Positions 10,517 to 24,600 of a stretch of 24,600 nucleotides of DNA are shown piece by piece. Location of the stretch: positions 1 to 24,600 of the IMG/VR virus record IMGVR_UViG_3300035224_000016, one strand, 5' to 3'. The translations under genes were made by a program, and so were the position numbers. Position 1 is the stretch's first letter. Each line of letters starts with the position of its first letter. The DNA is from a virus. Below the pieces are notes generated by a model. The model was not told the origin of the DNA. It did no database searches and saw nothing but the letters and a program-made list of their open reading frames with translations.

Positions 10517-10937
10517 GTATGGAAGGACTTACTGTGCCTATAATAGCAGACGGGCCCATTCTTGTCAACTCTTTAATGAACGGTGGGATCACTTGTAATA
10601 CTGTCACAAGAGTGGTCAGCACCGCAGTGGTTCCGATCACAAATTTAGTATTACTTTCAATTCTTTTTTGCATCTTACCCATTCTTTCGTGGAAAAGAAG
10701 AGCATCTTTATCATGACGAACTTTCATCTCTTCAATCATATTGATGATGAGTTTATCTGCTCTATCAGATTCATCCAAACGATTTTCATGGCGCTCCAAG
10801 ATTACAGCAACTCTGTTACTGTTTTCGGAGATTGTACCTACTGCTCTTTCGAGTTTGTCAAGCATCTCTTTGGAGAGATCTTCATAAATATCCAGTTTAC
10901 TTTCAAGAACTGCTAATCTACCAAGACCGAATGCCAT
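10503..10937 (-). CDS. Coiled-coil protein with C-terminal membrane segment
   Basis: A 144-aa protein. Residues about 5-95 are continuous charged helix with heptad-like Leu/Ile/Met spacing (LESKLDIYEDLSKEML, ADKLIINMIEEMKV), typical of a coiled coil. Residues about 100-120 (FVIGTTAVLTTLVTVLQVI) form a membrane segment with a short tail. It is not recognised as a named family. Coiled coil plus membrane anchor would suit a membrane-tethered assembly or replication-site protein. It is the first gene behind an exact late promoter box and overlaps the primase start. Confidence 0.65.
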   Translation of the reverse strand: MAFGLGRLAVLESKLDIYEDLSKEMLDKLERAVGTISENSNRVAVILERHENRLDESDRADKLIINMIEEMKVRHDKDALLFHERMGKMQKRIESNTKFVIGTTAVLTTLVTVLQVIPPFIKELTRMGPSAIIGTVSPSIRELS

Positions 10938-10963
10938 AAACTTTACATTCCAGTGTGCGTATT

Positions 10964-10977
10964 AATACTCAAGTATT
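10964..10977. repeat. Perfect inverted repeat AATACT-CA-AGTATT
   Basis: Six-base arms around a two-base centre, at the start-site side of the late promoter at 10974-10981. It could be an operator-like site or chance in AT-rich sequence; no second copy was noticed. Confidence 0.35.
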
Positions 10978-10981
10978 TATA
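10974..10981 (-). promoter_or_regulatory. T4-type late promoter TATAAATA
   Basis: The exact minus-strand TATAAATA includes the stop codon of the gene ending at 10977 (GTA TAA ATA) and lies 37 bases before the ATG at 10937. A 14-base inverted repeat (AATACT-CA-AGTATT, 10964-10977) follows directly and overlaps it by four bases. Confidence 0.65.
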
Positions 10982-11696
10982 CATTTCTTACAGCAAAGTC
11001 TAGTGCAGATTGATACGTAGAAGCATCTTTGTTTAGCATATAACGAAACTGCTGTTGCTGACTGTCTTCCAGTTGAGCATAGCAGGCAGCAATTCTTTTT
11101 GCTGAAAAATTATCTAGGTTTTGTTCAGATCCATCACCAAATTTAATCTTGGCAAAAGAAGTTTCGCCACCCGGATTAAGTTCAGAAGTTGCTACTTGCA
11201 TTGCAACATCCAATGCATCTTGTTGTGTAGATTCAGTCATAGTATTATCAGTCAGTTCAGTTTGTTCTTTTTTAAGTTTAGATGTTTGGTCACCTGCTTT
11301 TTTCTTGAAGTCCGACATACGGGCTTTCATAAGAGTGTCCATCTCTTTAGTCTTATTCATCATTTTAGATTTTGCTTCACCACGTTTTTTCTGCAGATCT
11401 TTAGCGCGGTTCAGTTTTTTCATCTGACCGATCTGTTTCTGCGCTCTCTCGGTTTCCGAGGGAACTGCTTCAGAAATAGTTTTTGTTTCTAGTTCTTCTT
11501 TCATTTTCTTACGTGTAGTTATACGAGACAGCATTTTCTTCGCACCTTTAGTACGACCATCCACCCTATCCTGGTTCGCTTTTTTATATCTACGATGCTG
11601 TCTTGGGTTTACCATGACAAACGCAGGAGGAATTTGCAATGCAGATCCATCTCCCGCCATCATTTCATTCACAGTAGGTTTAATTCCTTCAGACAT
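10977..11696 (-). CDS. Charged hypothetical protein, possible virion or assembly protein
   Basis: 239 aa, start at 11696 inside the end of the previous gene (28-base overlap). The N-terminus (TVNEMMAGDGSALQIPPAF) is followed by a very basic segment (about 33-65, RQHRRYKKANQD). A long Lys/Glu/Met helical region (70-145) has coiled-coil character, then comes a more globular C-terminal domain (about 165-239: FAKIKFGDGSEQNLDNFSAK, QLEDSQQQQFRYML). No enzymatic motif is seen. Late promoters flank it and an Ig-domain gene lies two genes upstream, so a structural or scaffold role is reasonable. Confidence 0.6.
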   Translation of the reverse strand: MSEGIKPTVNEMMAGDGSALQIPPAFVMVNPRQHRRYKKANQDRVDGRTKGAKKMLSRITTRKKMKEELETKTISEAVPSETERAQKQIGQMKKLNRAKDLQKKRGEAKSKMMNKTKEMDTLMKARMSDFKKKAGDQTSKLKKEQTELTDNTMTESTQQDALDVAMQVATSELNPGGETSFAKIKFGDGSEQNLDNFSAKRIAACYAQLEDSQQQQFRYMLNKDASTYQSALDFAVRNV

Positions 11697-12025
11697 TCTT
11701 GATCTACATCCTTGTTTATAGATTCAGGTAAGCGATTTAGTACTAGTATAAATGCTTTTAATGCTGACCAATGAGTCGCCTCTATCTTATAGAAAAGAAG
11801 AGGCGTGGCGGCATCATCAAACACATTATACATCACAATAATATGATTTAATATAAGATGAGTTTTTAATTCACCCTGTGTTTCGTATCTACGAAACAAC
11901 CTTTTGATGTACTTAATCTTATTTAGATCTTTTTTAAAGTCATCAAAAGTAACTGAACTTGGATTATTATAATGTTTAATAGCAAACATTACCCAGTTAT
12001 CGGGCGTCAATTCATCAAATTTCAT
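11669..12025 (-). CDS. 118-aa hypothetical protein
   Basis: A helical, mixed-charge protein (MKFDELTPDNWVMFAIKHYN, KYIKRLFRRYETQGELK, HLILNHIIVMYNVF). No signal peptide, Cys cluster or catalytic motif is visible. It starts 7 bases after the Ig-domain gene and overlaps the following gene by 28 bases, so it is co-transcribed from the late promoter at 12647. The compact helical style is common in conserved T4-like cyanophage proteins of unknown role. Confidence 0.65.
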   Translation of the reverse strand: MKFDELTPDNWVMFAIKHYNNPSSVTFDDFKKDLNKIKYIKRLFRRYETQGELKTHLILNHIIVMYNVFDDAATPLLFYKIEATHWSALKAFILVLNRLPESINKDVDQECLKELNLL

Positions 12026-12032
12026 TTAATCA

Positions 12033-12614
12033 TTAAGCAGTTGTAACTACTGCGGTAGCAGAAGTAACTTCGGGAGCACCATTAGTAGAGTTGATCTTGA
12101 CACGGTAGGAACCAGCATCAGTTTCTGCATAAGAAGCAACGTCAAGTGTGGTTGCAGTCTCACCAGAAACATTTGCCCAACGATTTGCATCAGACAACTT
12201 CTGCCACTGATACGTGAGGACGGAAGCATCTCCAGGAGGAGTTGCGATAGCGGCAAGAACAAGTTGCAGAGCATCACCAACAGCAACAGCAGTATCTGCA
12301 GGTTGTGTATTGATAGTGATTGCTACGCTTACGTCTGCTGCTACAGCGTCGTCTGCCTGGGTCTCATCTGCGTTCGCTTCAGGACCAGCGATTGTTACTA
12401 GCATCTCTGCCTTATGACGGGTGTTACCATCACAATCAGTGAAGGTATAATATGACCACCAACCAGGAGCGTTCAAACCACGAGCCTTATTCTCGGCAAG
12501 TGCTGCTTCGGTGTCGTCAATAAAAATTGTTTGCTTTGCTTGTGCGGATGCTGCGATACCAATGCCTGCTTTGGCTTTGTTAGCGTTGCTGTCCGTTCTT
12601 CCGTATAGGGACAT
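12033..12614 (-). CDS. Virion protein with C-terminal Ig-like domain
   Basis: 193 aa. The N-terminal domain (1-75) contains GLNAPGWWSYYTFTDCDGNTR, a Trp/Tyr/Asp-rich unit I associate with structural proteins of marine T4-like phages. After an Ala/Asp-rich linker (76-98), residues about 103-192 form an Ig-like fold: TINTQPADTAVAVGDALQL as the first strands, LTYQWQK with the core Trp, and YAETDAGSYRVKI carrying the D-x-G-x-Y tyrosine-corner motif. Ig domains on phage particles are usually surface-exposed on head, tail or fibre and may bind cell-surface glycans. It has its own exact late promoter 33 bases upstream, matching late expression. Confidence 0.8.
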   Translation of the reverse strand: MSLYGRTDSNANKAKAGIGIAASAQAKQTIFIDDTEAALAENKARGLNAPGWWSYYTFTDCDGNTRHKAEMLVTIAGPEANADETQADDAVAADVSVAITINTQPADTAVAVGDALQLVLAAIATPPGDASVLTYQWQKLSDANRWANVSGETATTLDVASYAETDAGSYRVKINSTNGAPEVTSATAVVTTA

Positions 12615-12646
12615 GAGTTTTCAGCGCGTGTGATTTACCTAATATG

Positions 12647-12654
12647 TATTTATA
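12647..12654 (-). promoter_or_regulatory. T4-type late promoter TATAAATA
   Basis: Exact minus-strand TATAAATA, 33 bases before the ATG at 12614 of the Ig-domain gene. It continues directly from the T-run of the upstream terminator (TTTTTTTTATAAATA). Confidence 0.75.
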
Positions 12655-12684
12655 AAAAAAAGGGAGAGGCAATATACCCCTCCC
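12654..12684 (-). terminator. Intrinsic terminator behind the 66-aa gene
   Basis: On the minus strand the hairpin GGGAGGGG-TATATTG-CCTCTCCC (12662-12684, one mismatch) is followed by eight T (12654-12661). It ends transcripts coming from the right just before the late promoter of the Ig-domain gene. Confidence 0.8.
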
Positions 12685-12691
12685 AATATTA

Positions 12692-12892
12692 TCACTCTTC
12701 CCTGTTTTTAATTGCTGCTGAAACAACTTCAAGAAGTTGATCATCCATATCAGTCTTGGTCAGTTTAACCGCTTTAGCAAGAATAACAAGACAGATCTCA
12801 ACCATCTTCTCACCGAGCTCTTCATTCTCTGGAATTTTGTTGATTGCATCGGTAATAATCTTTGATGCGAGTGGAAGTAAGAATGCTAACAT
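12692..12892 (-). CDS. 66-aa hydrophobic/amphipathic hypothetical protein
   Basis: A hydrophobic N-terminus (MLAFLLPLASKIITDAI) is followed by an acidic turn (PENEELGEK), a hydrophobic helix (MVEICLVILAKAVKL) and a polar C-terminal helix ending in charged residues. Two amphipathic or membrane-associated helices are likely. A late-promoter-like GATAAATA lies 26 bases upstream and a terminator immediately downstream, so it may be expressed as a single-gene late transcript. Function unknown; a membrane-active or capsid-interior peptide are both possible. Confidence 0.6.
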   Translation of the reverse strand: MLAFLLPLASKIITDAINKIPENEELGEKMVEICLVILAKAVKLTKTDMDDQLLEVVSAAIKNREE

Positions 12893-12916
12893 AATTTTAA
12901 ATGCATGACTACCTTT

Positions 12917-13018
12917 TTATTTATCTTTCAACCTTTGTTTTTCAATGGTCTTAAGAACATATTTTTTATGTTTCTTTTTAGTAGTAGCATCTTCCGCTCC
13001 GTCTTTGAGGTCAGGCAT
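12917..13018 (-). CDS. 33-aa basic micro-protein (possible)
   Basis: From the ATG at 13018: MPDLKDGAEDATTKKKHKKY, then VLKTIEKQRLKDK. It starts 21 bases after the stop of the 402-aa gene and fills an otherwise empty 146-base gap. An acidic start followed by a Lys-rich helix suggests nucleic-acid or capsid-protein binding, but this is inference. GAGG lies only 2 bases before the ATG, closer than usual, so translation is uncertain. Confidence 0.4.
   Translation of the reverse strand: MPDLKDGAEDATTKKKHKKYVLKTIEKQRLKDK
12918..12925 (-). promoter_or_regulatory. Late-promoter-like box GATAAATA over a stop codon
   Basis: The minus-strand GATAAATA (one base off consensus) consists of the Asp-Lys-stop end of the 33-aa ORF. 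It lies 26 bases before the ATG at 12892. Confidence 0.45.
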
Positions 13019-13038
13019 AACCTCAACGGTAGCGGACG

Positions 13039-14247
13039 TTACTTTTTTTCTTCTTCAATCTCCTTCTGAAGTTCTGCCTGCTCCTTCATTTTCTTCTTGG
13101 TGTTAATCAGTTTAGTAACTTTTTTACGACGAGCATGTAGATACTTGTCTGACTTATCTACATCACCATCGTTGTCAATATCAGCATCTGCCTTACCAAC
13201 TGGATCAAGTTTCTTTTCACCAAGAACTTCTCTGTTCTTGTCATCGTTTACAACGTGCTCATGAACTTCACTGATCATGATCTCAAGTTCGTTGACAGGA
13301 ACATTGTGGAGAATCGTATTCTCTCTCATAATATCGTAGTGAGTTACAGTTCCATCTTCGAGCATAGTATGCTCACCAGAAACTACAGAATACTCAAGAC
13401 CTTCTTTCTTAACTTTCTTTGCACAGTTGTGCTTCTTGACCATCTTACCTGTCTTGGGATCCTTTTCAAAGTATTCTTTGACACAGTTAGGAACAGACTT
13501 ACCACCCTTCATCTTGGTTCCGGATGCTTTGTAACCCTTCCAGCAAGTAGAAGCACCAACGTTCTTACGTGCTGCCTTCATACTACCTTCTTCGATTACT
13601 TCTCTCTCGAAGATATAAGTCTCGCCACCTAACTCAAACGATACTTCTTCTTTCTTTGCAGTCTTTGCAGATTTAGCGAAGGCATCAGCAGCAGGATAGT
13701 CCTTACTACCTTTCTTTGCAGGTGCTTCTCCACGCTTCTTTTTAGCAAGGATGTTAGCGTAAAGACCTTTCTTTTCATCGAGGATATCAACATCCTCCTT
13801 CTTCATTTTGTGAACTCCTGTGTCTCCACAGTGAGAGCAACCTTTTCCACCACATTCGGGACACTTCTTTTTCCCTTCAGTCTCTTCACGAGCAACAACT
13901 TTAGTAGTATCTTTGATCTGTGCTCCAACAGAATACTTCATACCCTGACCTGTACGCAGGTTAGCAGCAGGATCAGGGGGAGCAGCGTTTGTTTTAGGAT
14001 CCTTCTGGGAGAAGTCATCACACTCTTTCTCTTCCTTACCAGAAAGGTCAGGGATAGAAGTAGATGCATCAGTACCACCAGCAGGACCAGGAGCTCCTAA
14101 ATCTTTTTTCTCTGGTGTTGGAATACCATCTTCATTAAGATGCCAACCAAATCCAGCGCCGCCTACCCATTTACCATAAGATTCGATCAGTGCCTGGGAG
14201 AAGGCATCATTATGTTTTACACTATTGACTGGTTTTTGTCTTTCCAT
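13039..14247 (-). CDS. Probable virion/prohead protein with DnaJ-type zinc motifs and a calcium-loop
   Basis: 402 aa. Residues 47-95 are Pro/Gly/Asp-rich and probably disordered. At 129-144, CPECGGKG and CSHCGDTG are two consecutive C-x-x-C-x-G-x-G units, the zinc repeat of DnaJ-type domains. Residues about 218-265 include a CWKGYKASGTKMKGGK-type segment found in several T4-like cyanophage proteins, flanked by further Cys. Residues 348-370 (DPVGKADADIDND then GDVDKSDKYL) form a D-x-D-x-D-G EF-hand/dockerin-like calcium loop. The tail is Lys/Glu-rich helix. It has an exact late promoter 27 bases upstream inside the previous gene. Its composition suggests a head-core or particle protein rather than an enzyme. 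Confidence 0.65.
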   Translation of the reverse strand: MERQKPVNSVKHNDAFSQALIESYGKWVGGAGFGWHLNEDGIPTPEKKDLGAPGPAGGTDASTSIPDLSGKEEKECDDFSQKDPKTNAAPPDPAANLRTGQGMKYSVGAQIKDTTKVVAREETEGKKKCPECGGKGCSHCGDTGVHKMKKEDVDILDEKKGLYANILAKKKRGEAPAKKGSKDYPAADAFAKSAKTAKKEEVSFELGGETYIFEREVIEEGSMKAARKNVGASTCWKGYKASGTKMKGGKSVPNCVKEYFEKDPKTGKMVKKHNCAKKVKKEGLEYSVVSGEHTMLEDGTVTHYDIMRENTILHNVPVNELEIMISEVHEHVVNDDKNREVLGEKKLDPVGKADADIDNDGDVDKSDKYLHARRKKVTKLINTKKKMKEQAELQKEIEEEKK

Positions 14248-14497
14248 TATTGAAAATACTACTTTTCCTCTCTTTATTTATAGCGTCTGTTACTTGTACT
14301 GCTCTGATATCCTTCACCCACGCTCTAAACATATCACCAGATTCTGTAATAGCAATCACGTAGTTTACTCCTGCTCTATGGATTGTTCCCTTATCTCCAG
14401 TGATTGAAGACATAATAACATCACCCTCTACAAAGACATCACCTTGTCTGTGCTGCTGACGCAGTGCTTCTTCACGTAGTTTTTTAAAATTTTTCAT
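14222..14497 (-). CDS. 91-aa hypothetical protein, possible small beta-barrel
   Basis: The ATG at 14497 overlaps the stop of the nucleotidyltransferase gene (ATGA, 14494-14497). A basic N-terminal helix (MKNFKKLREEALRQQHRQ) is followed by alternating beta-type sequence: GDVFVEGDVIMS, GDKGTIHRAGVNYVIAI, GDMFRAWVKDIRAV. This G-D-x-V / G-x-I-x-R-x-G rhythm resembles SH3-like or KOW-like small barrels that bind nucleic acid or ribosomal partners. No specific family is claimed. The end overlaps the next gene by 26 bases. Confidence 0.6.
   Translation of the reverse strand: MKNFKKLREEALRQQHRQGDVFVEGDVIMSSITGDKGTIHRAGVNYVIAITESGDMFRAWVKDIRAVQVTDAINKERKSSIFNNGKTKTSQ
14275..14282 (-). promoter_or_regulatory. 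T4-type late promoter TATAAATA inside the upstream coding region
   Basis: Exact minus-strand TATAAATA, 27 bases before the ATG at 14247. It lies in the last codons of the 91-aa gene, so the 402-aa gene can be expressed late independently of the cassette upstream. Confidence 0.65.
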
Positions 14498-15057
14498 TTA
14501 AAATTTGCTGGTAGATTATTTTTAATTTCCATCATCATTGCCTTACAATCTTTATCTGATAAGGATTGAGGGATACCTGATCGAAAGATCTTGTAGTCCA
14601 TATTAAAAGCTGCTCTCCTCATCTTTGTACCAGAGATAGCAAACGTGTCTCCATCAGCATCTCTGCTGCCAGAAGATTCGATTGTAATCTTCCTAAAAGA
14701 AAAGTCTTTTCCATTGTACTTATGCAAGAACTGCATCGCAGATACTCTATCAGAACCTACAAGAAAGACTACTTCATTATAGTCCGCCATCATAATGTCT
14801 TGAAGAATAGCAACTGGTTGTTTTGGACCAGAGTATATTTTACCACGATGTTCCGGAAACATCAAGTTCATGTAATGTAACTTACGATCAGGTGGTAATG
14901 GATTACTACCTTTATTGTCTACAGTTTGTGAAATATAGATGCGATAATCATGCTGACCAGCAGCACGTTTTACCCCATTAAAATTTTCTTTATGTCCTGT
15001 AGTAGGTGGTTGGAATCTGCCAAACGTAAAGTAGCAGGTCTTACAATTTAACGCCAT
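14494..15057 (-). CDS. HxGH-type nucleotidyltransferase (NMN adenylyl/cytidylyltransferase-like)
   Basis: 187 aa. GRFQPPTTGH (residues 13-22) is the T/H-x-G-H nucleotide-binding motif of the cytidylyltransferase/NMNAT superfamily. VVFLVGSDR (97-104) matches the strand carrying the G-x-D substrate loop. ISGTKMRRA (141-149) is the I-S-x-T-x-x-R phosphate-binding motif near the C-terminus. Enzymes of this fold join a nucleotide from ATP or CTP to a phosphorylated partner, for example NMN to NAD, or make CDP-alcohols. The acceptor cannot be told here. It overlaps the ligase-like gene by 10 bases and is coupled to the 91-aa gene, so it acts within that cassette. Confidence 0.78.
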   Translation of the reverse strand: MALNCKTCYFTFGRFQPPTTGHKENFNGVKRAAGQHDYRIYISQTVDNKGSNPLPPDRKLHYMNLMFPEHRGKIYSGPKQPVAILQDIMMADYNEVVFLVGSDRVSAMQFLHKYNGKDFSFRKITIESSGSRDADGDTFAISGTKMRRAAFNMDYKIFRSGIPQSLSDKDCKAMMMEIKNNLPANFK

Positions 15058-16253
15058 TGCTTCTGTAAAGTGAAGTTGTTGTATGCAAACTCAAGACGAT
15101 TGACAAATTTAATCATATCACCATCCTTGTGAAGGACATATCCTTCAGGAGTTGTGACCTTATATCCTTTCTCTGTCTGAACAAAAGTTCTAAACTCTTC
15201 AAGGTGATCTAGTTTATCTATAACCATTTGCTTGACTGTTTGCAGTTCTTTATACAGAGCAATCATCGCTTTAAATTTATATACGTTATCAATTACATAG
15301 TTTTCACTCTTGTATACTAAAGCAGACTTCTTTGTTCTATTATCAACTGTCTTAATTTTCGATAACTCTTTCTGCATTTTAGCATCGTAAAAGTTAACTA
15401 ACTCATTAATAGTGTCATCAACATTTGTTATACTTCTCGCGTTCTTAATTTCTGAATTAAAAAATTGTTTAAGGTACGATGATATGTGAAATTTTGAATC
15501 TCCCGTAGTACCAAAATTTTCTACAAGATTGTCAAGAAAATCTCCAGACAATTGACACATCCTCTCTATCTTCAGAATATGACTGTCAAACTTTCTTAAT
15601 TCTGTAGTGCTGAACCCAACTCTATTCATAGGAGTATCATTAGCAATCACAGCAACGTCAGTAACCTTATTAAAAGTATTAATTGGAGCACCAGCTCTTG
15701 CTTGCATCGATGCAAGTTCATCCCCAGTGTAATGAGTATGAAAAACTACTCCAATTTTTGATCTACCAACTTCTTTACCGATTGGATGATCTACAGGTAT
15801 ACCATATGTAATAGTATTAGGTCTGAATGTATATAATCTTTCACCATCTATAGTTTCGATTCTTCTAGTAGAGTCAGTGAACATAAGGTCACCTTGAATG
15901 ACTCCATTAATACCTAATAAACTAAAATATTTTAAAGAAAATTTTAACTTGGTAGCAAGATCTCCATCATACCATTCATCAATTTGTTGGTCAGCAAAAC
16001 ATAGTTTAGGTTGTGTCTTCGCAAAGACAGATTTAGTGCCAACAAAAAACAATCCAGAAGCAGGATCAGTACCACAAATAACAGATGGTGCTCCATCCCA
16101 TTTGGTTTGCATAAACCCAGTGCTGTCTTGATGTCCCAGCATTTTTTTCAGTTCCTTAAGGAAAGATACAGCAGCTTTGCATCCGTCAACTCCATAGTTG
16201 AGCATTTCATCTTCAAGATGTTCTAAATGTTTTAGTTGCTTTACGTTTGCCAT
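15048..16253 (-). CDS. Ligase-fold nucleotidyltransferase-like protein
   Basis: 401 aa. K51-W-D-G-A-P-S has the K-x-D-G of motif I, where ligases and capping enzymes carry the AMP or GMP on lysine. GVIQGDLMF (117-125) looks like motif III. TPEGYVLH (368-375) followed by MIKFVNR (380-386) fits motifs IV (E-G-x-V) and V (K on the last strand), as in RNA ligases. About 320 residues separate motifs I and IV, more than usual, with a Lys-rich helical insertion between them, so the domain is atypical. It may seal, cap or otherwise nucleotidylate nucleic acid or protein. The stop of the 476-aa gene overlaps its ATG (TAATG), so it is coupled to both neighbours. Family assignment is from motifs only. 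Confidence 0.6.
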   Translation of the reverse strand: MANVKQLKHLEHLEDEMLNYGVDGCKAAVSFLKELKKMLGHQDSTGFMQTKWDGAPSVICGTDPASGLFFVGTKSVFAKTQPKLCFADQQIDEWYDGDLATKLKFSLKYFSLLGINGVIQGDLMFTDSTRRIETIDGERLYTFRPNTITYGIPVDHPIGKEVGRSKIGVVFHTHYTGDELASMQARAGAPINTFNKVTDVAVIANDTPMNRVGFSTTELRKFDSHILKIERMCQLSGDFLDNLVENFGTTGDSKFHISSYLKQFFNSEIKNARSITNVDDTINELVNFYDAKMQKELSKIKTVDNRTKKSALVYKSENYVIDNVYKFKAMIALYKELQTVKQMVIDKLDHLEEFRTFVQTEKGYKVTTPEGYVLHKDGDMIKFVNRLEFAYNNFTLQKQWR

Positions 16254-17683
16254 TAGGAAACCTTAATGTACGGTGCTGAATTATCAGAAGCAGAAGTTGC
16301 ATACAAATATATTCTAGTTGACAACTCATCTCTTTCAGTTTTAGAACCATTCATCAAAACATCTGTCACCACCAACCCCAGATATTTTGCAAACTTCCAT
16401 TGTGGTCTCATCTCTTTAATCAAATCAATATCAACCACTTCTCCAGTTTTAATAATATATTTAGAGTTACTTTTAGCAAGATTTAATATTTTTGTATCTA
16501 AATTACCCATCTGTGCTGCGGAAGCAACTGCTGCTGTGTCTGAATAATCTTGAAACAAACCTTTTCCAGATCCATAAACAGATTCCATGATGAAATTCAT
16601 TACACCACCACCAATCTTACCATGTTTGGCAGCAGTTCCCGTAACTTCACCCTGCCAAGTCTTACCTTCTTTATCAGTTGCTCTAAACTGAACTCGAAAA
16701 CCTTGTCCTTCTACGTAAATATCCATAGACTTATAAAGAGTCTTTGATCCAACATTTACAAATGGTTTTTTTACCGTCAACGATGCTTTCGTAAAATTAT
16801 GCTCTGTCAGATTTGCAGCATCACTCTCTACTTTTTTTAAAGACACTCCTATCAGTTTCTTTTCATTAATAAGATTCAACAATACTTTATTAATACCACC
16901 CTGAAATATCATTTCATTAGTGATGATACTATTATCAAATCCACCTGCACACATATAGATGTCAGCAGGTGTCCACTTATTAATATTAGAAAATGGTCTG
17001 CCTTCTGCTGCGTTTACTTTCTTGAAATGATTTTCTACTACATCAACAATACCTGTTCCGCGATGAAATTTAAAATTGGTGTTCCGGTATTTTGTTGCAC
17101 CATACAACTTGTTTGCGGTTCTAATACTTGACTTCATCCATGCAGGATCATCAACTAAAAATTTATGAATTTCTTCTACTGATTTATCTGTATCTACTGA
17201 AGATGATACTTTCTTCAAATCATCTAAAGTAACGTTATAGTCAGTATCAATATCTTTTTTTAAAGAATATCTGTAAGCAGTAACCCAACACGCTGCTCCT
17301 TCAAATAAAGCGGTTGCATCTGCACCTCCACCAGATCCTTTACTACTCCCAAAAGCAGTAGTCTTTTTAATTTTCGTGAATCTAATGTTGGTTAATTTAT
17401 TTTGTTTTCCATTCTTTTGTATTGCTTGAAGTACCGGTTTGCCCGTATACTTTGATGCAAAATTATTTGTATTTGATTTGTCAGGTGAGTCAAATAACAT
17501 TTGACCATCAAGAACTTTTTTCATGTCAGACAAGACACTATCAGATGTCATGATAAGTGCTTCGCCGCCACCATCAAGTTCTAATTTTTCTCTGTTGACA
17601 ATGGCATCATAAAGGATACGCAAGCGAATACCTCCCCCACTGGGGGCATCCTTGCCGTAATCACTCATGGTCATTGCTGCCAT
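16253..17683 (-). CDS. 476-aa protein, possible PD-(D/E)XK-like nuclease
   Basis: The ATG at 17683 has GGAGGA 9 bases upstream, within a hairpin. A Gly-rich turn GSSKGSGGGADAT (112-124) precedes a helix with E128. NKWTPADIY (235-243) supplies D241 after a Pro, and LIGVSLKK (277-284) supplies S281-L-K283. The E...PxD...(E/S)xK order is that seen in many restriction-type nucleases, with Ser replacing the usual Glu; a degenerate or non-enzymatic protein is possible. The C-terminal half holds GQGFRVQFRATD and a GKIGGGVMNF segment with no known signature. It is the first gene of the overlapping cassette with the ligase-like and nucleotidyltransferase genes. Function unproven. Confidence 0.6.
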   Translation of the reverse strand: MAAMTMSDYGKDAPSGGGIRLRILYDAIVNREKLELDGGGEALIMTSDSVLSDMKKVLDGQMLFDSPDKSNTNNFASKYTGKPVLQAIQKNGKQNKLTNIRFTKIKKTTAFGSSKGSGGGADATALFEGAACWVTAYRYSLKKDIDTDYNVTLDDLKKVSSSVDTDKSVEEIHKFLVDDPAWMKSSIRTANKLYGATKYRNTNFKFHRGTGIVDVVENHFKKVNAAEGRPFSNINKWTPADIYMCAGGFDNSIITNEMIFQGGINKVLLNLINEKKLIGVSLKKVESDAANLTEHNFTKASLTVKKPFVNVGSKTLYKSMDIYVEGQGFRVQFRATDKEGKTWQGEVTGTAAKHGKIGGGVMNFIMESVYGSGKGLFQDYSDTAAVASAAQMGNLDTKILNLAKSNSKYIIKTGEVVDIDLIKEMRPQWKFAKYLGLVVTDVLMNGSKTERDELSTRIYLYATSASDNSAPYIKVS

Positions 17684-17686
17684 ATG

Positions 17687-17716
17687 AAAAATCCTCCCCT
17701 AATATTTAGAGGAGGA
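17687..17716 (-). terminator. Terminator-like hairpin behind tRNA-Ser, containing the next gene's Shine-Dalgarno
   Basis: Minus-strand stem TCCTCC-x-CTAA / TTAG-x-GGAGGA with a 3-base loop (17692-17716) and five T after it (17687-17691). It begins 5 bases after the tRNA 3' end. The 3' arm (GGGGAGGA) is also the ribosome-binding site of the ATG at 17683, so folding would hide it. Confidence 0.7.
17703..17710 (-). promoter_or_regulatory. Late-promoter-like box TCTAAATA within the hairpin
   Basis: One base off TATAAATA, centred on the hairpin loop and 19 bases before the ATG at 17683. If used, the transcript would start near the 3' arm, keep the Shine-Dalgarno and lose the hairpin. Confidence 0.35.
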
Positions 17717-17721
17717 CGAAA

Positions 17722-17808
17722 CGGAAGCGGCTGGATTTGAACCAGCGGTGCCCGTGAAGACACATTAGTTTTCAAGACTAACGCAATAAACCGCTCTGCC
17801 ACGCTTCC
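17722..17808 (-). tRNA. tRNA-Ser (anticodon UGA)
   Basis: An 87-base class II tRNA. The acceptor stem GGAAGCG/CGCTTCC has G as discriminator base, and the anticodon stem TTAGT/ACTAA holds the loop CTTGAAA with UGA at 17772-17774. A long variable arm as expected for Ser lies between the anticodon and T arms. The T arm is GCTGG-TTCAAAT-CCAGC. CCA is not encoded. It reads UCA (and other UCN) codons and probably supplements host decoding. A small ORF ends inside its anticodon stem. Confidence 0.92.
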
Positions 17809-17987
17809 TTGGTTTTTAAATTTCCTTTGGGACAAAATACCATCTTATGATTTTCGGTGATTACATAGTAACCGATAAGTTCAGAACCATCATCATCCCA
17901 ACCATACGTTAACACTTTTTCTCCAGTAATTTCATGCTTTTTATTTGTGTGGAGATAGTGCCCGTATCGTTCGTGAAGGTTGATCAT
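17778..17987 (-). CDS. 69-aa hypothetical protein ending inside the tRNA gene
   Basis: The frame from the ATG at 17987 gives a compact protein (MINLHERYGHYLHTNKKHEI, GEKVLTYGWDDDG, LIGYYVITENHKMVF). It is beta-like, with many His/Tyr, and the sequence looks like real coding. The last 10 residues and the stop lie in the 5' half of tRNA-Ser (31-base overlap), so the C-terminus may be a by-product of the tRNA's position. No clear Shine-Dalgarno is visible. Function unknown. Confidence 0.5.
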   Translation of the reverse strand: MINLHERYGHYLHTNKKHEITGEKVLTYGWDDDGSELIGYYVITENHKMVFCPKGNLKTKEAWQSGLLR

Positions 17988-18024
17988 TGCAGTTCGGTGT
18001 CAGACATCTATATTTTATCACGAA

Positions 18025-18043
18025 ACCCTCACAAATGGAGGGT
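18025..18043 (-). other. Short hairpin downstream of mazG
   Basis: ACCCTC - 7-base loop - GAGGGT in the 69-base gap after mazG. The following minus-strand bases (TTCGTG) are not a T-run, so it is at best a weak terminator or an mRNA-end stabiliser. Confidence 0.4.
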
Positions 18044-18056
18044 CCTTTATAATATC

Positions 18057-18461
18057 TTAACGATCTCCTACTGCACGAACTTCCGAGTTGTTAACATTAA
18101 ACTCTCCACCAGGGTAACGCTTCTTGAGTTTGTTGACATTAGTTTCGATTACCTCATCGAAGGATATATCAAGTGCCATTGTAGCTTGAGCAACGTACCA
18201 CATAACATCACCCAACTCAATAATAAGATGCTCGCGGTTATCTTCGTTCCACGGTTTTCCTTGGAAGACCATTTTTTTAATGATCTCAAGGAACTCACCC
18301 CCTTCAGCATTAATTCCAACACCAGCAGTAAGAAGTCTCTCAATATTGGCACCTTGTCTATCAAGAGCGCCAATACGATCAGCAAAGTCAACGAAGTTTG
18401 TAGAAGCTTCTGAAGTAACTGCTGCCACAAATTCTTCATAGCGATTAAAATTGATTGTCAT
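18057..18461 (-). CDS. mazG: MazG nucleoside triphosphate pyrophosphohydrolase
   Basis: 134 aa, with the ATG overlapping the gp41 stop (ATGA, 18458-18461). The MazG core is seen at about residues 52-62 (AEGGEFLEIIKK) and 82-95 (ELGDVMWYVAQ). Its E-x-x-E...E-x-x-D acidic residues bind Mg2+ and cleave nucleoside triphosphates to monophosphate and pyrophosphate. Cyanophage MazG was first thought to lower host ppGpp; biochemical work on a cyanophage enzyme favoured dNTP substrates such as dGTP and dCTP. Placement behind polymerase, recombinase and helicase genes fits nucleotide recycling during phage replication. Confidence 0.92.
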   Translation of the reverse strand: MTINFNRYEEFVAAVTSEASTNFVDFADRIGALDRQGANIERLLTAGVGINAEGGEFLEIIKKMVFQGKPWNEDNREHLIIELGDVMWYVAQATMALDISFDEVIETNVNKLKKRYPGGEFNVNNSEVRAVGDR

Positions 18462-19846
18462 ATTGTAAATTGGGAGAATTTATCGAGTCTGGATTGTTTG
18501 GTTGAGATTTCTTCAAGTGCTTCGTATGTCTCGTCCTCTTGATCGGACGTGATATCACCTTCAGAATCATCAACATTATACAGCTTCATTTTTGATCTGT
18601 CAATGCCTACAGTGAAGCGTCTGTAATAGGCAGCATCGTTGTATCTGTTCTTGAGTTGCTTGATCATGATACGACCTGACTGCTCTAACTCTTCAGTAGA
18701 TATGAGAGCAAGCATAAGATCGGCAGTAGCGGGAAGACCAAAAGATTCACTAGTATCTGTAAGGTCAACATCACTATTACCAAAACCACTCCGAGTAGTT
18801 TGAGTAGCAGTGAACACAGGTAGATCATGCTTGACCGCAAGACCACGAAGTTCTTCTGCAATCGCTTTGACATAGGTGTAAGAGTTAACAATGTGTCCCT
18901 TATAGCGAGCAGAAGCACAGATATTTAGATAGTCTATAAACACAATGTTAGGTCTAAAATCTTTCTTCAATGACAGGTCACTTAATAGTGACTCAAAGTG
19001 TCCTACGTGTGCAGCAGCAGTAGGATACTCTTTGATAATCAACTTACCTTGAGACTTCCTACCAATCTCATTAACTCTTGATGTAAAGATGTCTTCTGGT
19101 ATTGAACCGATGTCTTGAATATTGACATTCAATAAGTTGGAGTCAATACGTTCAGCAATCTTTTCTTCTGCCATCTCCATTGTAATATACAATACATTAT
19201 ATCCAATAGAAAGACAGGCAGCTGCCATATGACACATGAATAGTGACTTACCAACACCTGTACCAGCAAGAGCAACGTTAAGTGTCTTGTTAGGAATACC
19301 ACCCTTGGTGATTAGATTCAACTTATCGATGTCAAAGGGAATCTTATGCTCTTCAAGGTGATAGTAATCGTATCTATCTTTTACATTTTGTACGTAGTCG
19401 TGTCCGATGTTTTCGTCGAAAGATACTGCCAGGGCTTCTTGTAAGATACCTGGGATCGCCCCTGGTGATACCTCTGAATCGCCTCCATCTGCGATCTTGA
19501 TCGACCGTAGGAGGGCATTGTAGACTGCACGTTCCTGACACCATTTTTCAGTGGTGTCTGTGAGCCATCTGGTATCAACCCATTCGTCTGTGAGGATGTC
19601 GATCTGTGAAACAGTCTTTTGATAAGTTTCTTCAGTGAGGTCATTTCTTTGTTGCAAGTTGATGATCAAAACTTCCTTGGTAGGAAACTTATCATATGTA
19701 GAAGCAAAGTCGTTGATTTCTTCAAAGATGTATTGCTCTACTGGTTCTTGAAAGTATTCTTTCTTCAGGAAAGGAACTACTTTACGAAAGTATTCTTCAC
19801 TACACAGAAGATTCCTCAAGATTGTCAGTTCCAGTTTCTCCGTCAT
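18458..19846 (-). CDS. 41: Replicative DNA helicase (T4 gp41, DnaB-like)
   Basis: 462 aa from the ATG at 19846, chosen because GGAG lies 6 bases upstream; the start is inside the end of uvsX (47-base overlap). The N-terminal domain (about 1-140) is helical and makes ring and primase contacts. The RecA-like motor follows: Walker A GTGVGKS (195-201), Walker B IVFIDYLN, then the TATQTTRSG motif and the arginine-bearing KQLKNRYND segment. It unwinds DNA at the fork 5' to 3' and works with gp61 primase. Length is close to T4 gp41 (475). Late acidic residues form a flexible tail. Confidence 0.93.
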
Positions 19847-20861
19847 CAAATGCTCCGTATAAAAATTCGCGTTGTGCCTGTTTGTCTAGTTCGGTAAGGA
19901 CTTCTAGTGTAAAATATGCTTCTGGATCTTTTAGGATTGCCTTTGCATATACTTTCTTGCCGTCGATTTCATAACGACCAGCAACGTTTTTCCACAGTCC
20001 TGCTCTTTCACCTAGTTCTAACAGACCATAATATTTTTCAAGTCCACGTTCATCGAAGAATAGTCTTGTTTCAATCTTGGAACCTTCTCTCGTCAGACGA
20101 GACTTTTTAGCCTCGCATTTGATAATGTTTCCGACGAGATTCGTTCCATCCTTCTCCTTTTTCTTTCCGAGATAAACGATTGTGCTAGCAGAATACTTGA
20201 GTCCGCTACCACCACCCATCTCTTTTGTAGGGACATAAGAACCGATGACATCATAGGTATGATTGGTAACTAACATAGGTATATTTGCCTTACCAAGTTT
20301 TAAGGTTAGGATACGGAAGCATGACTTAATCAATTGAGATTTTGTCATGTCACGAACTTGTTTGTCGTCCGTAGCATCTTGAACCTCTTTGTTGGTTGCT
20401 AACATACCAAGAGAGTCTAGCACAAACATCAGTGGTTTGCGTGTTTCTTTAGGTTGTTCTACATATTTGTCGATGATCCTGACCGCCTGGGTCCTGAACT
20501 CCTCCACTGTATTGACAGGAAAGATCACCAGACGCTTCGAGTCGATACCACGACTCTCGATCATCTGTTTACTGATAGCAGACTCGGTTTCAAAATAGAG
20601 GACGCCAGCGCCAGGATCAAGATCAAGGAAATTACGAACGACAGAAAGACAAAAGAAAGTCTTTCCAGTCCCTGATTCTCCTGCAAGAGCAGTGATCTTA
20701 TTGGAGGGAATACCTCCAAAAATGCTACCACTAACCAGGGCATTAAAGATATAACTACCAGTATCAACAAAAGTTTCAACGTCACCAGCAGCAATACCAT
20801 CAGATGCAAGAGAAGCAAACTCATTTTTGCTATCCTTAATTACTTGTGATAAAAAATCCAT
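19800..20861 (-). CDS. uvsX: UvsX RecA-like recombinase
   Basis: 353 aa from the ATG at 20861 ([14 protein letters not shown]), one base after the gp43 stop; a longer frame back to 20909 would overlap gp43 and is rejected. Walker A is GESGTGKT (61-68) and Walker B is [19 protein letters not shown] and [14 protein letters not shown] carry the L2/DNA-binding and ATP-sensing parts. It forms filaments on single-stranded DNA for recombination-dependent replication and repair, as in T4. Length is slightly below T4 UvsX (391), with a short acidic tail ([12 protein letters not shown]). It is translationally coupled with gp43. Confidence 0.94.
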
Positions 20862-20862
20862 A

Positions 20863-23355
20863 TTATGTGAATGATAAAAGTGATACTGTTTTTTTACTCT
20901 TCCAACCAATGCATTTTAATACATTCTCTAGTGGGCAGAAGAATGATTTCTCAAATTGTAGATTGTAATCAATATACTTTTCTACATTGAGCTCGTTTGG
21001 TATGCGACTCATGAAAGAAATAACGTTTTCCCCAATAGGATTTGGTTCTTTAAGATATAAGAATTTAATCTTCTCTCCTTCTTGAATACGAGCATACTTG
21101 TTCTCTACATTATACTTGTTAATATAGAAATTGTAAAGCAACGCTCCCCTAACGTGAATAGGAGTTCCCTTTTCATAAATGTCATGAACACTTTTATATT
21201 TGGAAAGATTATTTACACCACGAGGGAATGCAATGTTTGCATACTCTTCTTGACGACTATCTTTTTTAACTTTTTGAATGAATTCAATGACATCATCGTT
21301 ACTACCATTGATAATAATGGCATAAGCTTTCTTAAGTTTATCACGGAAGAATGCGGGAGTAGATGAACGTGCCGTTTCCATACCACAGATCTTCATCTTT
21401 GGTTCATTGTAACGTACACCCTCACTATCCCAGACGTTGAGGATATATCGCTTCTTGGCAGTCCAGATGCCACGGTTAGCGATGTTCTCCCGCTTCATCT
21501 TCATCTTCTGCGCGTATGCCCGAACATAAGTGGCGAGTTCTTGGTAAGAACTTTCAATAAACTTCTCAAATTCCACTTCACACACCTTGTCAAGGAACCC
21601 AACAATGCTCTCATCATCTGCCTCTCGTCCGGCGAATACCTTCTGCACCAAAGGACCGAGGTTAAGATACATAGAATCGGTGTCGCAAGCAATAACGTAA
21701 TCAACATCATTAGTTTTCAGAACTTTGTTTAAGTAATCATTGGTCTTATTACTAATCCAACGAATAGACAACTGACCAGATGTTGTAATCGCTTCTGCAA
21801 TCTCCAAACGATAGTATCGGAAGTGTTCGTTACCGATAGCACCATAAGCAGAGTTGAGTTGGATCTTCCTTGCCATCTGAATGTTGTTACATCGAGAGAT
21901 TTCTTTCTGCAACTGGATGGTAGGAGTCTTTTCATACTGCTGCTTGGCAGCGAGCATCTTCTTCTTGTAAATGGTACGTTCTTGATAGATTTTATCCATC
22001 AACTCGGGCAAGAAACCATGGGTCTCTGTAGTGTACAGGGTGCCGTTAGGACACACTGTCTGCCCCTTTAGGTCAGACAAGTCAATCTCCTTGTTCAGCA
22101 GTCTCTCAACGTTCGCTGACGGGTGTTTAGTAGGCAATAGCGTCTCTGGCGAGAGGTTGTATTGCATAATGAGGTGAGGGTATAGGGAGTTGAGGTCAAA
22201 AGAGACAACCCAGTCATAGATCCCCGGAATAGGTTCCTTAACATACGCACCAGCATACTTATTATCCTTTGTACTTTGACGTTTAGGTGGAATAGCAACG
22301 TTTCTACGAGCAAGATAAACATAGATGATGTTATCCCACATACGAACCTGTGAGTATACATCTTCAAAGTTTACCTTGGCATCATATGCCATAACCACAG
22401 CAAGTTCAAGTAGTTTCATCTTGTCATCTAGTTTATCAACCAGGCGAACGTCAATGATGTTGTACTCTACAAACTTCTGCCAGTCATTATCGTAGAACTC
22501 TTTGAAGGTATCATACTCACTGTGATCCAGTTTCTTCTGTCCCAGTTCCACAAATGCAATGTGGTCCAGACGATATGATTCTTGGTTAGTGTAAGTAAAC
22601 TTACGATACAACTCAAGATAATCTAATGTAGATACCCCAGTGATATCATAAGCAATATTCTTACGACCTTTAATCCAAACTTCTCTGCAGTATATGTTCT
22701 TCCAAGGAGACATAAGTCTTGCTACTTTGTCTCCAAGCAAACGTTCAATGCGCCTAATAATATACGGCATATCAAACAGTTGTACGTTCCATCCAGTAAT
22801 AATATCTGGATAGTTTGAAGACCACCAGTGAAGGAATGCTTTTAACATACCTTCTTCCGTCTGGAAGTGCATGTATTGCACATCCTTCTGGGTATTATGA
22901 AACGGACGAGTACCGAATACAGAAATCTTACCGGTGTGAGAATCTTTAATACTGATCAACAATATTTGCTGGTCAGCAGCTTCAATATTTGGAAACCCAT
23001 TCTCTGCACCAGTCTCAATATCAAGAGTAAAGACTCGAATCTGATTGACATCAAATTTCATCTCCTCGTCAGGATATTCTTCAAAGATATACTGATTTAA
23101 GAAACGTGTTTGACCACAGATCTCAAAGTCAGGTATCTCTTTATGATCTTCAATGAACTGTTTGGCATCTTTGATGGTGCCTTGCTTAACTTCACGGACA
23201 CATTTACCATCCAGTGTTTTCCAATCAGTGGGTTTCAGTGATGGGAGATATAGAGTAGGATTATATTTTACTTTGTCCTCAAATGCTCTACCGTCCTGAT
23301 ATCCTCTTACATAAATGTTATTTCCAGATTGTTCAACACTGGTGTAAAACTTCAT
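20863..23355 (-). CDS. 43: DNA polymerase, family B (T4 gp43)
   Basis: 830 aa, compared with 898 in T4. The 3'-5' exonuclease is intact: DIET (112-115), the Exo II region TGWNVQLFD (187-195) and Exo [13 protein letters not shown] (298-307). Polymerase motifs: A FDLNSLYP (386-393), [10 protein letters not shown] (497-505), C CDTDSMY (557-563). All catalytic Asp residues are present, so both proofreading and synthesis should work. The single uninterrupted frame has no intron or split, unlike some T4-like phages. The start overlaps the previous stop by one base (TAATG). It copies the phage genome; the sliding-clamp and clamp-loader genes are not in this window. Confidence 0.96.
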
Positions 23356-23606
23356 TAGTCCTCTTTGTCTTTCAAATCATAATATTGGGCGGCGAACATA
23401 GCACTTGGTTCTGTAATCAAAGTAATGTCAGATGACCTTACAGTAAGTTCGCGCTCATCACTGTAGGGAGGAAATGATGTAGCACCATTCTCCGACACTT
23501 CACATGGATATTTTAGCACACAGTCGGGATCCCCAAACTCAACATCAGGAATCTCATCAACCTCGGCAACAATCCAGTGACCATCAAACTTCAGGAGTTT
23601 CAGCAT
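23355..23606 (-). CDS. Small Sm-like (LSm-type) protein, second of a tandem pair
   Basis: 83 aa from the ATG at 23606; an ATG two codons earlier (23612) is equally possible. Either start overlaps the end of the first Sm-like gene. The pattern is that of a small beta-barrel: KLLKFDGHWIVAEVDEIPD, a second strand group CVLKYPCEV, then ERELTVRSSDITLI and a short helix (MFAAQYYDL). LDG-x-x-I-V-x-E-V followed by R-S-S-D-I resembles the two Sm motifs. Its stop overlaps gp43 by one base. It could bind RNA or tune phage replication or translation; that is inference. Confidence 0.6.
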   Translation of the reverse strand: MLKLLKFDGHWIVAEVDEIPDVEFGDPDCVLKYPCEVSENGATSFPPYSDERELTVRSSDITLITEPSAMFAAQYYDLKDKED

Positions 23607-23985
23607 CTTCATTAATTTCAGTAGGGACAAAACCGGTTTCAGCAGACACTTCAGTGCGGGTTGCAGAAGATTCAAGTGCTTCTGCTTGAGCAACGGTATT
23701 CTCATATGCTTCCACCAGTCCATCATCAGGAGTGCCGATGGTGAGAAGAGTAGAAAATGCTACTCTGAATTGTGTATCAGAAGAGTAAGGAAGCCACTTG
23801 GTAAATCTTACCTGAACTTCTTGATTGGAAGGATCACCAACAGTTTTTTCCACATTCAAAATGTATGGGCGCTGCATAACCAGACAAACTGGTTTTCCTT
23901 CAGGGTCATTATTCTCTCGGACTTCTTGAAGTTGGGCAATTACACGCTCACCTGTTGTGAGTACAACAATTGATACTGCAGACAT
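23584..23985 (-). CDS. Sm-like (LSm-type) protein, first gene of the replication operon
   Basis: 133 aa. Residues 5-80 have the alternating strands of an Sm fold: VVLTTGERVIAQLQEV (Sm1-like, G-E-x-V-I-A-x-L), VCLVMQRPYIL, then VRFTKWLPYSS and TQFRVAFSTLLTIG. The C-terminal 50 residues are acidic, Ala/Glu/Thr-rich and probably disordered. An Sm-like protein of putative cyanophage origin has been solved by structural genomics, so the family is known in such phages; whether this is the same family cannot be checked here. It lies 18 bases or so behind a consensus sigma70 start, without a clear Shine-Dalgarno, suggesting translation from a very short leader. Confidence 0.62.
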   Translation of the reverse strand: MSAVSIVVLTTGERVIAQLQEVRENNDPEGKPVCLVMQRPYILNVEKTVGDPSNQEVQVRFTKWLPYSSDTQFRVAFSTLLTIGTPDDGLVEAYENTVAQAEALESSATRTEVSAETGFVPTEINEDAETPEV

Positions 23986-24009
23986 AGTTTTTTAGTAACG
24001 AACATATGT

Positions 24010-24038
24010 ATGATAGCATAAAAAAAGAGGGGTGTCAA
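24010..24038 (-). promoter_or_regulatory. Consensus sigma70 promoter of the replication operon
   Basis: Minus-strand TTGACA (24033-24038), 17-base spacer, TATCAT (24010-24015). Transcription should start near 24003, about 18 bases before the ATG at 23985. The -35 element lies inside the terminator hairpin of hsp20 and the T-run is in the spacer. Confidence 0.82.
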
Positions 24039-24062
24039 CTGGATTGTGCCAGTTACCCCTCT
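24020..24062 (-). terminator. Strong intrinsic terminator behind hsp20
   Basis: Minus-strand hairpin AGAGGGGT / ACCCCTCT extended by AACTGG / CCAGTT with a 6-base loop and a 3-base bulge (24026-24062), followed by a run of seven T (24020-24026, the first sharing the stem base). It separates hsp20 from the replication operon. Confidence 0.9.
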
Positions 24063-24087
24063 GTCATGCGACGACGATATACCTTAT

Positions 24088-24525
24088 TTATTCAAGCAAC
24101 AATTCTTTTTTTGAATCCGCAATAATATTGTACACTGTTCTCTTTTGACTTTCTGGAATAATTTTTTCAAGTGATACCTTTAACAACCCATCTTCAAAAC
24201 TAACATCATGAACTTCAATGTCTTCAGATAATTGCCAGGTATTACAGAATGATCTTTTTGATAATCCTTTATGAATATATTCTACTGTAGAATCTTTTGG
24301 CGGACTGACACTGGTAATTTTGAGAATGTTTGATTCTGTTGATACTTCAATTTCTTCTGGTTTAAAACCTGCAAGAGCCATTTCAATTTCGTAATTCGCA
24401 TTATCGTATTTGATAAGGTTGTAGGGTGGATAACTTTTATTGTGACTGGACATACTATCTAGTCTTTGAAAAATTTCATCCATCCCAACGTAGTGAGGCA
24501 CATATAAATCCCAAGTGTTATTCAT
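24088..24525 (-). CDS. hsp20: Small heat-shock protein Hsp20 (IbpA-like)
   Basis: 145 aa with a very good Shine-Dalgarno (AAAGGAG, 8 bases before the ATG). The alpha-crystallin domain covers about residues 38-128: YPPYNLIKYDNANYEIEMALAGF and PEEIEVSTE at the start, then the closing G-L-L-K-V strand (DGLLKVSLEK). N-terminal residues 1-35 are short and polar. A clear I-x-I/V tail motif is missing; it ends KKELLLE. Such ATP-independent chaperones hold unfolding proteins and are frequent in T4-like cyanophages, perhaps helping particle folding or host-protein stability. The gene is a single transcription unit with its own promoter and terminator. Confidence 0.92.
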   Translation of the reverse strand: MNNTWDLYVPHYVGMDEIFQRLDSMSSHNKSYPPYNLIKYDNANYEIEMALAGFKPEEIEVSTESNILKITSVSPPKDSTVEYIHKGLSKRSFCNTWQLSEDIEVHDVSFEDGLLKVSLEKIIPESQKRTVYNIIADSKKELLLE

Positions 24526-24585
24526 TTTTAATCTCCTTTAATAAGCGAGTTTGTTTTGCATGGACCCCGAAGGCATCCAGTACTA

Positions 24586-24591
24586 ATTATA
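24586..24591 (-). promoter_or_regulatory. -10 box TATAAT of the hsp20 promoter (-35 outside window)
   Basis: Perfect minus-strand TATAAT about 60 bases upstream of the hsp20 ATG. A -35 at 17-base spacing would fall beyond the window edge. The predicted start (about 24579) is immediately followed by a small hairpin with a C(TTCG)G loop (24562-24578). Confidence 0.55.
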
Positions 24592-24600
24592 ACACATCAT

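Follow-up and report, generated by a model that had tools for sequence, protein, structure and literature searches.

Promoter-early stem-loop (PeSL) cassettes join a stem-loop terminator with an early promoter at exchange borders. As cited in PMC4503421, these cassettes of T4-type phages are composite elements of stem-loop and promoter located at the borders of exchanged genes. In phage T4, the long transcripts of e, soc, 49 and I-TevI are described as burying the ribosome-binding site (RBS) in a helix, which late transcripts of e and I-TevI escape (PMC3014915, PMC2988022). For marine cyanophages, PMC2984593 reports that early and middle control proceeds without several T4 factors, and gives the late-promoter consensus as NATAAATA, a gp55-type promoter with a TAAATA core. 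The leader hairpin of psbA in phage S-PM2 that PMC5931967 reports is a different one from the hairpin considered here. Our analysis of a T4-like cyanophage locus points to a 38-base element that is probably a composite early-to-late switch; a literature search, thin on subscription papers, found no published description of this element in cyanophages.

The window, i.e. the whole stretch of DNA analysed, is a 24,600-base virus record of a T4-like cyanomyovirus, closest to Synechococcus phage S-CAM3 (79.9% identity over 77% of the window) and second-closest to Synechococcus phage S-CAM1 (78.1% identity over 70%). Its minus strand carries, in this order, genes for DNA polymerase, a UvsX-like protein and a gp41-like helicase, mazG, a 69-aa gene, tRNA-Ser, the hairpin, a 476-aa gene, a DUF6267 gene and a cytidylyltransferase-like gene (Table 1), part of the gene names being taken from the S-CAM3 annotation. 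The 69-aa ORF (17987-17778, minus strand) overlaps the 5' part of tRNA-Ser at 17778-17808. An Rfam search returned the tRNA as its only match, and the predicted structures of the 476-aa and DUF6267 proteins were poor (mean pLDDT 60.6 and 57.9, respectively), with no PDB matches at E <= 0.001.

Table 1. Features at and around the hairpin, in window coordinates
Feature	Coordinates	Strand	Basis
sigma70-type promoter, perfect TTGACA-17-TATAAT, inside the gp41 reading frame	18603-18575	-	
MazG-like pyrophosphatase, gene upstream of the hairpin	18461-18057	-	
tRNA-Ser(TGA), incidental neighbour upstream of the hairpin	17808-17722	-	
Hairpin, 12-pair stem	17717-17691	-	MFE fold, terminator scan, arm covariation in relatives
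TCTAAATA, gp55-type late-promoter-like -10 element, top of 5' arm plus loop	17710-17703	-	
GGGGAGGA, Shine-Dalgarno within the 3' arm	17699-17692	-	sequence
Presumed late start, at the 6th base past TAAATA	17697	-	inferred from T4 spacing
U-run behind the stem, intrinsic-terminator-like, doubling as Shine-Dalgarno-to-ATG spacer	17691-17687	-	terminator scan
476-aa slot gene, phrog_1462, no assigned function	17683-16253, ATG at 17683	-	
401-aa DUF6267 protein, conserved gene behind the slot	16253-15048	-	

The hairpin starts 4 bases past the end of tRNA-Ser, and the minus strand reads TCCTCCTCTAAATATTAGGGGAGGA, then the T-run, then CATATG. In the minimum free energy fold the 5' arm (17717-17706) pairs with the 3' arm (17702-17691) around a 3-base AUA loop (17705-17703), with a folding z of -3.05 and 1 of 200 shuffles equally stable. 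A G+C-rich stem with the U-run directly behind it gives the shape of an intrinsic terminator, and the hairpin ranks second of the 20 terminator-like sites listed for both strands of 10000-24600 (7.8 +/- 3.3 expected from shuffles). The original prediction of a stem and T-run just past tRNA-Ser, with the RBS of the 476-aa gene forming the 3' arm, agrees with the sequence. It had further placed a late-promoter-like motif in the loop; TCTAAATA is present, but it takes in the uppermost bases of the 5' arm (TCTAA) as well as the loop (ATA). In T4 late promoters, transcription starts at the 6th base after TAAATA. Applied to the window, this spacing would bring the start of the late transcript to about 17697, as had been expected, although this base belongs to the 3' arm and not to the loop, so that the presumed +1 falls 3' of the 5' arm.

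These features can be read as a sequence of events in which long RNAs transcribed through the replication genes, mazG and the tRNA would fold the hairpin. RNA polymerase would then be predicted to halt at the U-run, and RNA that does read through would have its Shine-Dalgarno locked in the stem. Late in infection, a gp55-type polymerase would bind at TCTAAATA and begin transcription near 17697. The late RNA would lack the 5' arm, so that neither the termination block nor the occlusion block could form, and about 14 bases of leader would remain for translation of the slot gene, which would presumably set the timing of its protein as well. In silico support for the switch comes from structure, from conservation and covariation, from promoter core and spacing, and from the occlusion that is lost without the 5' arm. 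The early-off/late-on action proposed from the start is supported by sequence comparison, because the late-promoter core, the stem that occludes the Shine-Dalgarno, the U-run and the spacing persist through changes in the flanking genes and the stem sequence; the mechanism itself we infer.

The sigma70-type promoter inside the gp41 reading frame points at mazG, tRNA-Ser and the hairpin, and a TTGACN-16/18-TANNNT match was found in 72 of 81 distinct stretches upstream of mazG. The promoter overlaps a conserved peptide, but codon choice is restricted there as well: among 70 distinct gp41 stretches, ATT encodes Ile in 68 (background 25%), GAC encodes Asp in 68 (34%), AGA or AGG encodes Arg in 68 (33%), CTG or TTG encodes Leu in 65 (8%) and TAT encodes Tyr in all 70 (36%). 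It looks like an embedded early promoter that would send transcription of mazG and the tRNA towards the hairpin.

A search with the exact hairpin pattern and a free loop matched 54 viral contigs. In this hairpin-selected set a T-rich run and then ATG followed the stem in 53 of 54 contigs (L045 being the exception), tRNA-Ser occurred in 19 of 53 scanned loci, and the downstream proteins formed several clusters. To avoid circularity, a hairpin-blind set was obtained by searching with an alignment of DUF6267, one gene further on, from which the best 80 of 514 matches were used, near relatives only (77-99% identical). A complete ORF preceded DUF6267 in 69 of these 80 loci, and the window, Syn1, S-CAM1 and S-CAM3 were added to give a set of 73, in which the last TAAATA of the leader was scored. 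TAAATA was present in 73/73 loci of this set (best 80 of 514 matches, plus four), lying 5-9 bases upstream of GGAGG (or GGGGG) in 72; L211 has GGAGAGG in place of either. The 8-mer was TCTAAATA in 64 loci, AATAAATA in 3, GCTAAATA and ACTAAATA in 2 each, and CCTAAATA and CATAAATA in 1 each, with C at position 2 in 69 of the 73.

The tRNA part of the original prediction is incidental, since a tRNA lies directly upstream in 7 of these 73 loci. A dependence of the element on a tRNA was rejected, no tRNA being found directly upstream in the other 66 (best 80 of 514, plus four), as was a tie to the 476-aa gene: the element precedes seven downstream classes, and a 74% homologue (L005, on the same contig as L215) stands without the stem. 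Among ten complete or nearly complete T4-like genomes examined, nine have a DUF6267 relative. The hairpin is present at this locus in S-CAM3, Syn1 and S-CAM1 (the records of Syn1 and S-CAM1 name the Synechococcus hosts WH8101 and WH7803), and no such hairpin was found at the DUF6267 place in the more distant relatives Syn9, S-PM2, S-SM2, P-SSM4, P-HM1 and HTVC008M.

Conservation of base pairing, which had been suggested as a check, was borne out by covarying arms. Real arm pairs have a mean pairing energy of -15.28 kcal/mol vs -13.49 kcal/mol for re-dealt 3' arms (sd 0.27; 0/500 re-dealt sets as low; 41 distinct pairs), and after near-duplicates were collapsed (24 pairs) the values are -14.45 vs -12.49 kcal/mol (sd 0.46; 0/500 as low), with independence and significance overstated in both, as the loci share ancestry. 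A MAFFT alignment of 26 hairpins was gap-free. The cleanest single case of apparent covariation is L211, which combines CATAAATA with a re-made stem, CCTCTCCA / TGGAGAGG. Three further loci (L201, L229, L240) carry the canonical AATAAATA upstream of a different small hairpin, the 5' arm of which is flanked by the motif on one side and the presumed +1 on the other, so that a late RNA would still lose it. In L215 and L251 CTAAATA is kept and the stem is absent; there the motif apparently falls at the 3' end of the upstream ORF.

These variants bear on a rival account of the locus, namely that an ordinary intrinsic terminator closes the early unit, its 3' arm serving by chance as the Shine-Dalgarno of the next gene and its TAAATA being no promoter. 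Such an account is compatible with the good terminator shape and the early-type promoter upstream; against it, TAAATA survives both the loss of the stem (L215, L251) and its whole re-making (L211), the motif turns canonical (AATAAATA or CATAAATA) in 4 of the 73 loci (best 80 of 514, plus four), and P-HM1 retains TCTAAATA upstream of its homologue where it has no such hairpin. We hold an ordinary terminator to be very unlikely.

The composite switch requires that the Shine-Dalgarno be closed in the long RNA and accessible in the late one. In the computed fold of the long window RNA, all five Shine-Dalgarno bases (GGAGG) have an unpaired probability of 0.0, whereas in the RNA starting at 17697 the values are 0.95, 0.86, 0.97, 0.91 and 0.36, and the energy needed to open the site falls from 14.5 to 0.8 kcal/mol. 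Across the 73 loci (best 80 of 514, plus four), the median opening energy is 13.8 kcal/mol in the long vs 2.0 kcal/mol in the late RNA, with a fall of at least 3 kcal/mol in 71. The mean unpaired probability lies below 0.2 in 70 of the 73 long RNAs. Counting against release of the site, it exceeds 0.5 in only 28 of the 73 late RNAs (median 0.37); we attribute the low values in late RNA to weak base pairing of the site with coding sequence.

Within individual genomes the slot gene has the highest opening energy of the scored genes, 12.0 kcal/mol in S-CAM3 (next 8.1, n=73), 13.8 kcal/mol in Syn1 (next 6.8, n=46) and 11.9 kcal/mol in S-CAM1 (next 8.6, n=72), where each n is an undercount from a crude ORF finder (start codon with Shine-Dalgarno, mostly at least 100 aa). 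The median of scored genes is 2.5 kcal/mol in all three phages, and the slot gene drops to 1-2 kcal/mol once the 5' arm is lost. By the same gene calls, a T5 run in the spacer between Shine-Dalgarno and ATG was found in 1/73 (S-CAM3), 1/46 (Syn1) and 1/72 (S-CAM1) genes, each time the slot gene. As no genome has more than one scored gene with such a run, a generic ribosome-site feature of these phages was rejected, and the U-run appears to be kept for termination. Further, among 1573 GGAGG sites across 8 genomes, only 10 are preceded by TAAATA at a distance of 5-9 bases, with ATG close behind in all 10, which also speaks against a generic feature.

A scan for the whole design with TAAATA matched 1/134 sites in S-CAM3, 2/121 in Syn1, 2/112 in S-CAM1 and 9/225 in T4, and control hexamers matched 1/926, 3/923, 3/664 and 20/2542 sites, respectively; as the controls were also matched, the scan is weak taken alone. 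It recovered T4 gene e with the late-promoter motif within the hairpin, and the T4 proteins behind its matches are, judging by their N-termini, presumably lysozyme, I-TevI, I-TevII and gp49. None of the nine T4 matches has a T5 run, and 6 of the 73 cyanophage loci (best 80 of 514, plus four) lack one of five or more. Both observations would suit a locus in which only the gene-e part is true, i.e. the hairpin hides the Shine-Dalgarno and a late promoter bypasses it, the U-run causing no appreciable termination. This is unlikely in our view, given that a run of at least T5 is kept behind the stem in 67 of the 73 loci and is otherwise confined to at most one scored gene per genome, and that the hairpin scores as a terminator. 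In a wider pattern sample, TAAATA occurred in 15 of 100 distinct inner stretches among the matches listed vs 1.46 in shuffles (maximum 6); most of the TAAATA stretches among these matches represent the same slot locus, and little is claimed about wider use of the design.

For the late promoter, the published consensus has A at position 2 where the window has C. Within the window, TATAAATA with at most one mismatch has 57 matches vs 38.4 +/- 6.6 expected; the 8-mer by itself is weak evidence, and the main weight rests on conservation in relatives. As a comparison, the tail sheath gene gp18, a late gene by analogy with T4, was fetched by protein search, used instead of a degenerate gp18-start pattern that matched only 4 contigs; the DNA upstream was long enough in 72 of 80 loci, which gave 30 distinct sequences. 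In each of the 30, a single TAAATA occurs within 62 bases, at a distance of 36-43 bases from ATG, and their promoters read TCTAAATA in 16, NATAAATA in 13 and ACTAAATA in 1, i.e. 17/30 have C at position 2. Because TCTAAATA itself makes up 16 of the 30, C at position 2 can be regarded, for these sequences, as an accepted natural variant at the canonical late position. In the gp18 upstream regions (L361-L440), TAGA or CAGA usually appears some 4 bases beyond the motif.

The element stands at a place where genes are exchanged. In 70 of the 73 loci (best 80 of 514, plus four; three dropped for short upstream DNA), the hairpin joins 17 classes of upstream region to 7 classes of downstream protein in 31 combinations, with two or more downstream partners for 7 of the upstream classes and two or more upstream partners for 5 of the downstream ones, and on this ground the hairpin is the left border of an exchange slot. 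Within one class, four loci (L195, L207, L217, L222) agree completely in upstream end and hairpin and have four different proteins behind. The slot, at 17683-16253 (minus strand) in the window, is hypervariable, with seven protein classes without assigned function between hairpin and DUF6267. If the conserved sequence were mainly a short homology for gene exchange by recombination, with little regulatory role, the 31 combinations would be explained; covarying arms and a fixed promoter-to-Shine-Dalgarno spacing are unneeded for homology, and re-made stems lose homology and keep the fold, which makes this reading highly improbable.

A bolder extension of the composite switch, which we find plausible without favouring it, is that the 38-base unit may act as a portable docking site for late genes, which would terminate early transcription, mask messages that leak through, launch late transcription and provide the RBS. 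If so, any reading frame recombined just behind it would become a properly timed late gene, the docking site would be a late counterpart of PeSL cassettes, and the exchange of unrelated genes at one cyanophage position without upset of timing would be explained.

Similar arrangements were observed at other genes. In S-PM2 (L307, about 15160-15200, plus strand), GATAAATA, CCTCCATATGGAGG and T6 precede a 115-aa gene. In the window, a strong terminator-like hairpin at 12684-12647 (minus strand) has its T-run passing straight into TATAAATA ahead of a gene at 12614 that is head-protein-like, and may be a second composite of terminator and late promoter. Six loci of other phages (L061, L070, L071, L083, L160, L173) have a CCTCC/GGAGG hairpin that encloses TAAATA and leads into a T-run and ATG, the gene in L071 being head-tail adaptor-like.

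Should the composite switch hold true, the classic lysozyme-type timing switch of T4 would extend to marine cyanophages, the cyanophage late-promoter consensus would widen to TCTAAATA, and a testable account of timing-safe gene swapping would be at hand. With the published consensus NATAAATA the element shares the TAAATA core, and it differs by C at position 2. Like PeSL cassettes, it is a composite element at a border between exchanged genes; in contrast to them, it holds a late-type promoter inside the stem-loop and the RBS in the stem. The promoter scan found no sigma70-type site within the element, the motif being late-type, and for this reason the element is not a PeSL. The genes I-TevI, I-TevII, I-TevIII, segB and Aeh1 mobE, which lie within early units, are likewise preceded by a late promoter together with an RBS hairpin (PMC2988022, PMC3014915). 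These are homing endonuclease genes, and the T4 matches have no T5 run, whereas the cyanophage element precedes a variable gene without assigned function. T4 gene e, as given in PMC3014915, has its Shine-Dalgarno in a hairpin of the long early RNA only and a late promoter immediately upstream, from which the late RNA lacks the 5' part; it differs in having no U-run behind the stem and TATAAATA as its motif. By its sequence, the cyanophage element would thus belong with the gene-e-type switches, to which the U-run, the TCTAAATA core and the swap slot behind it appear to be cyanophage additions.
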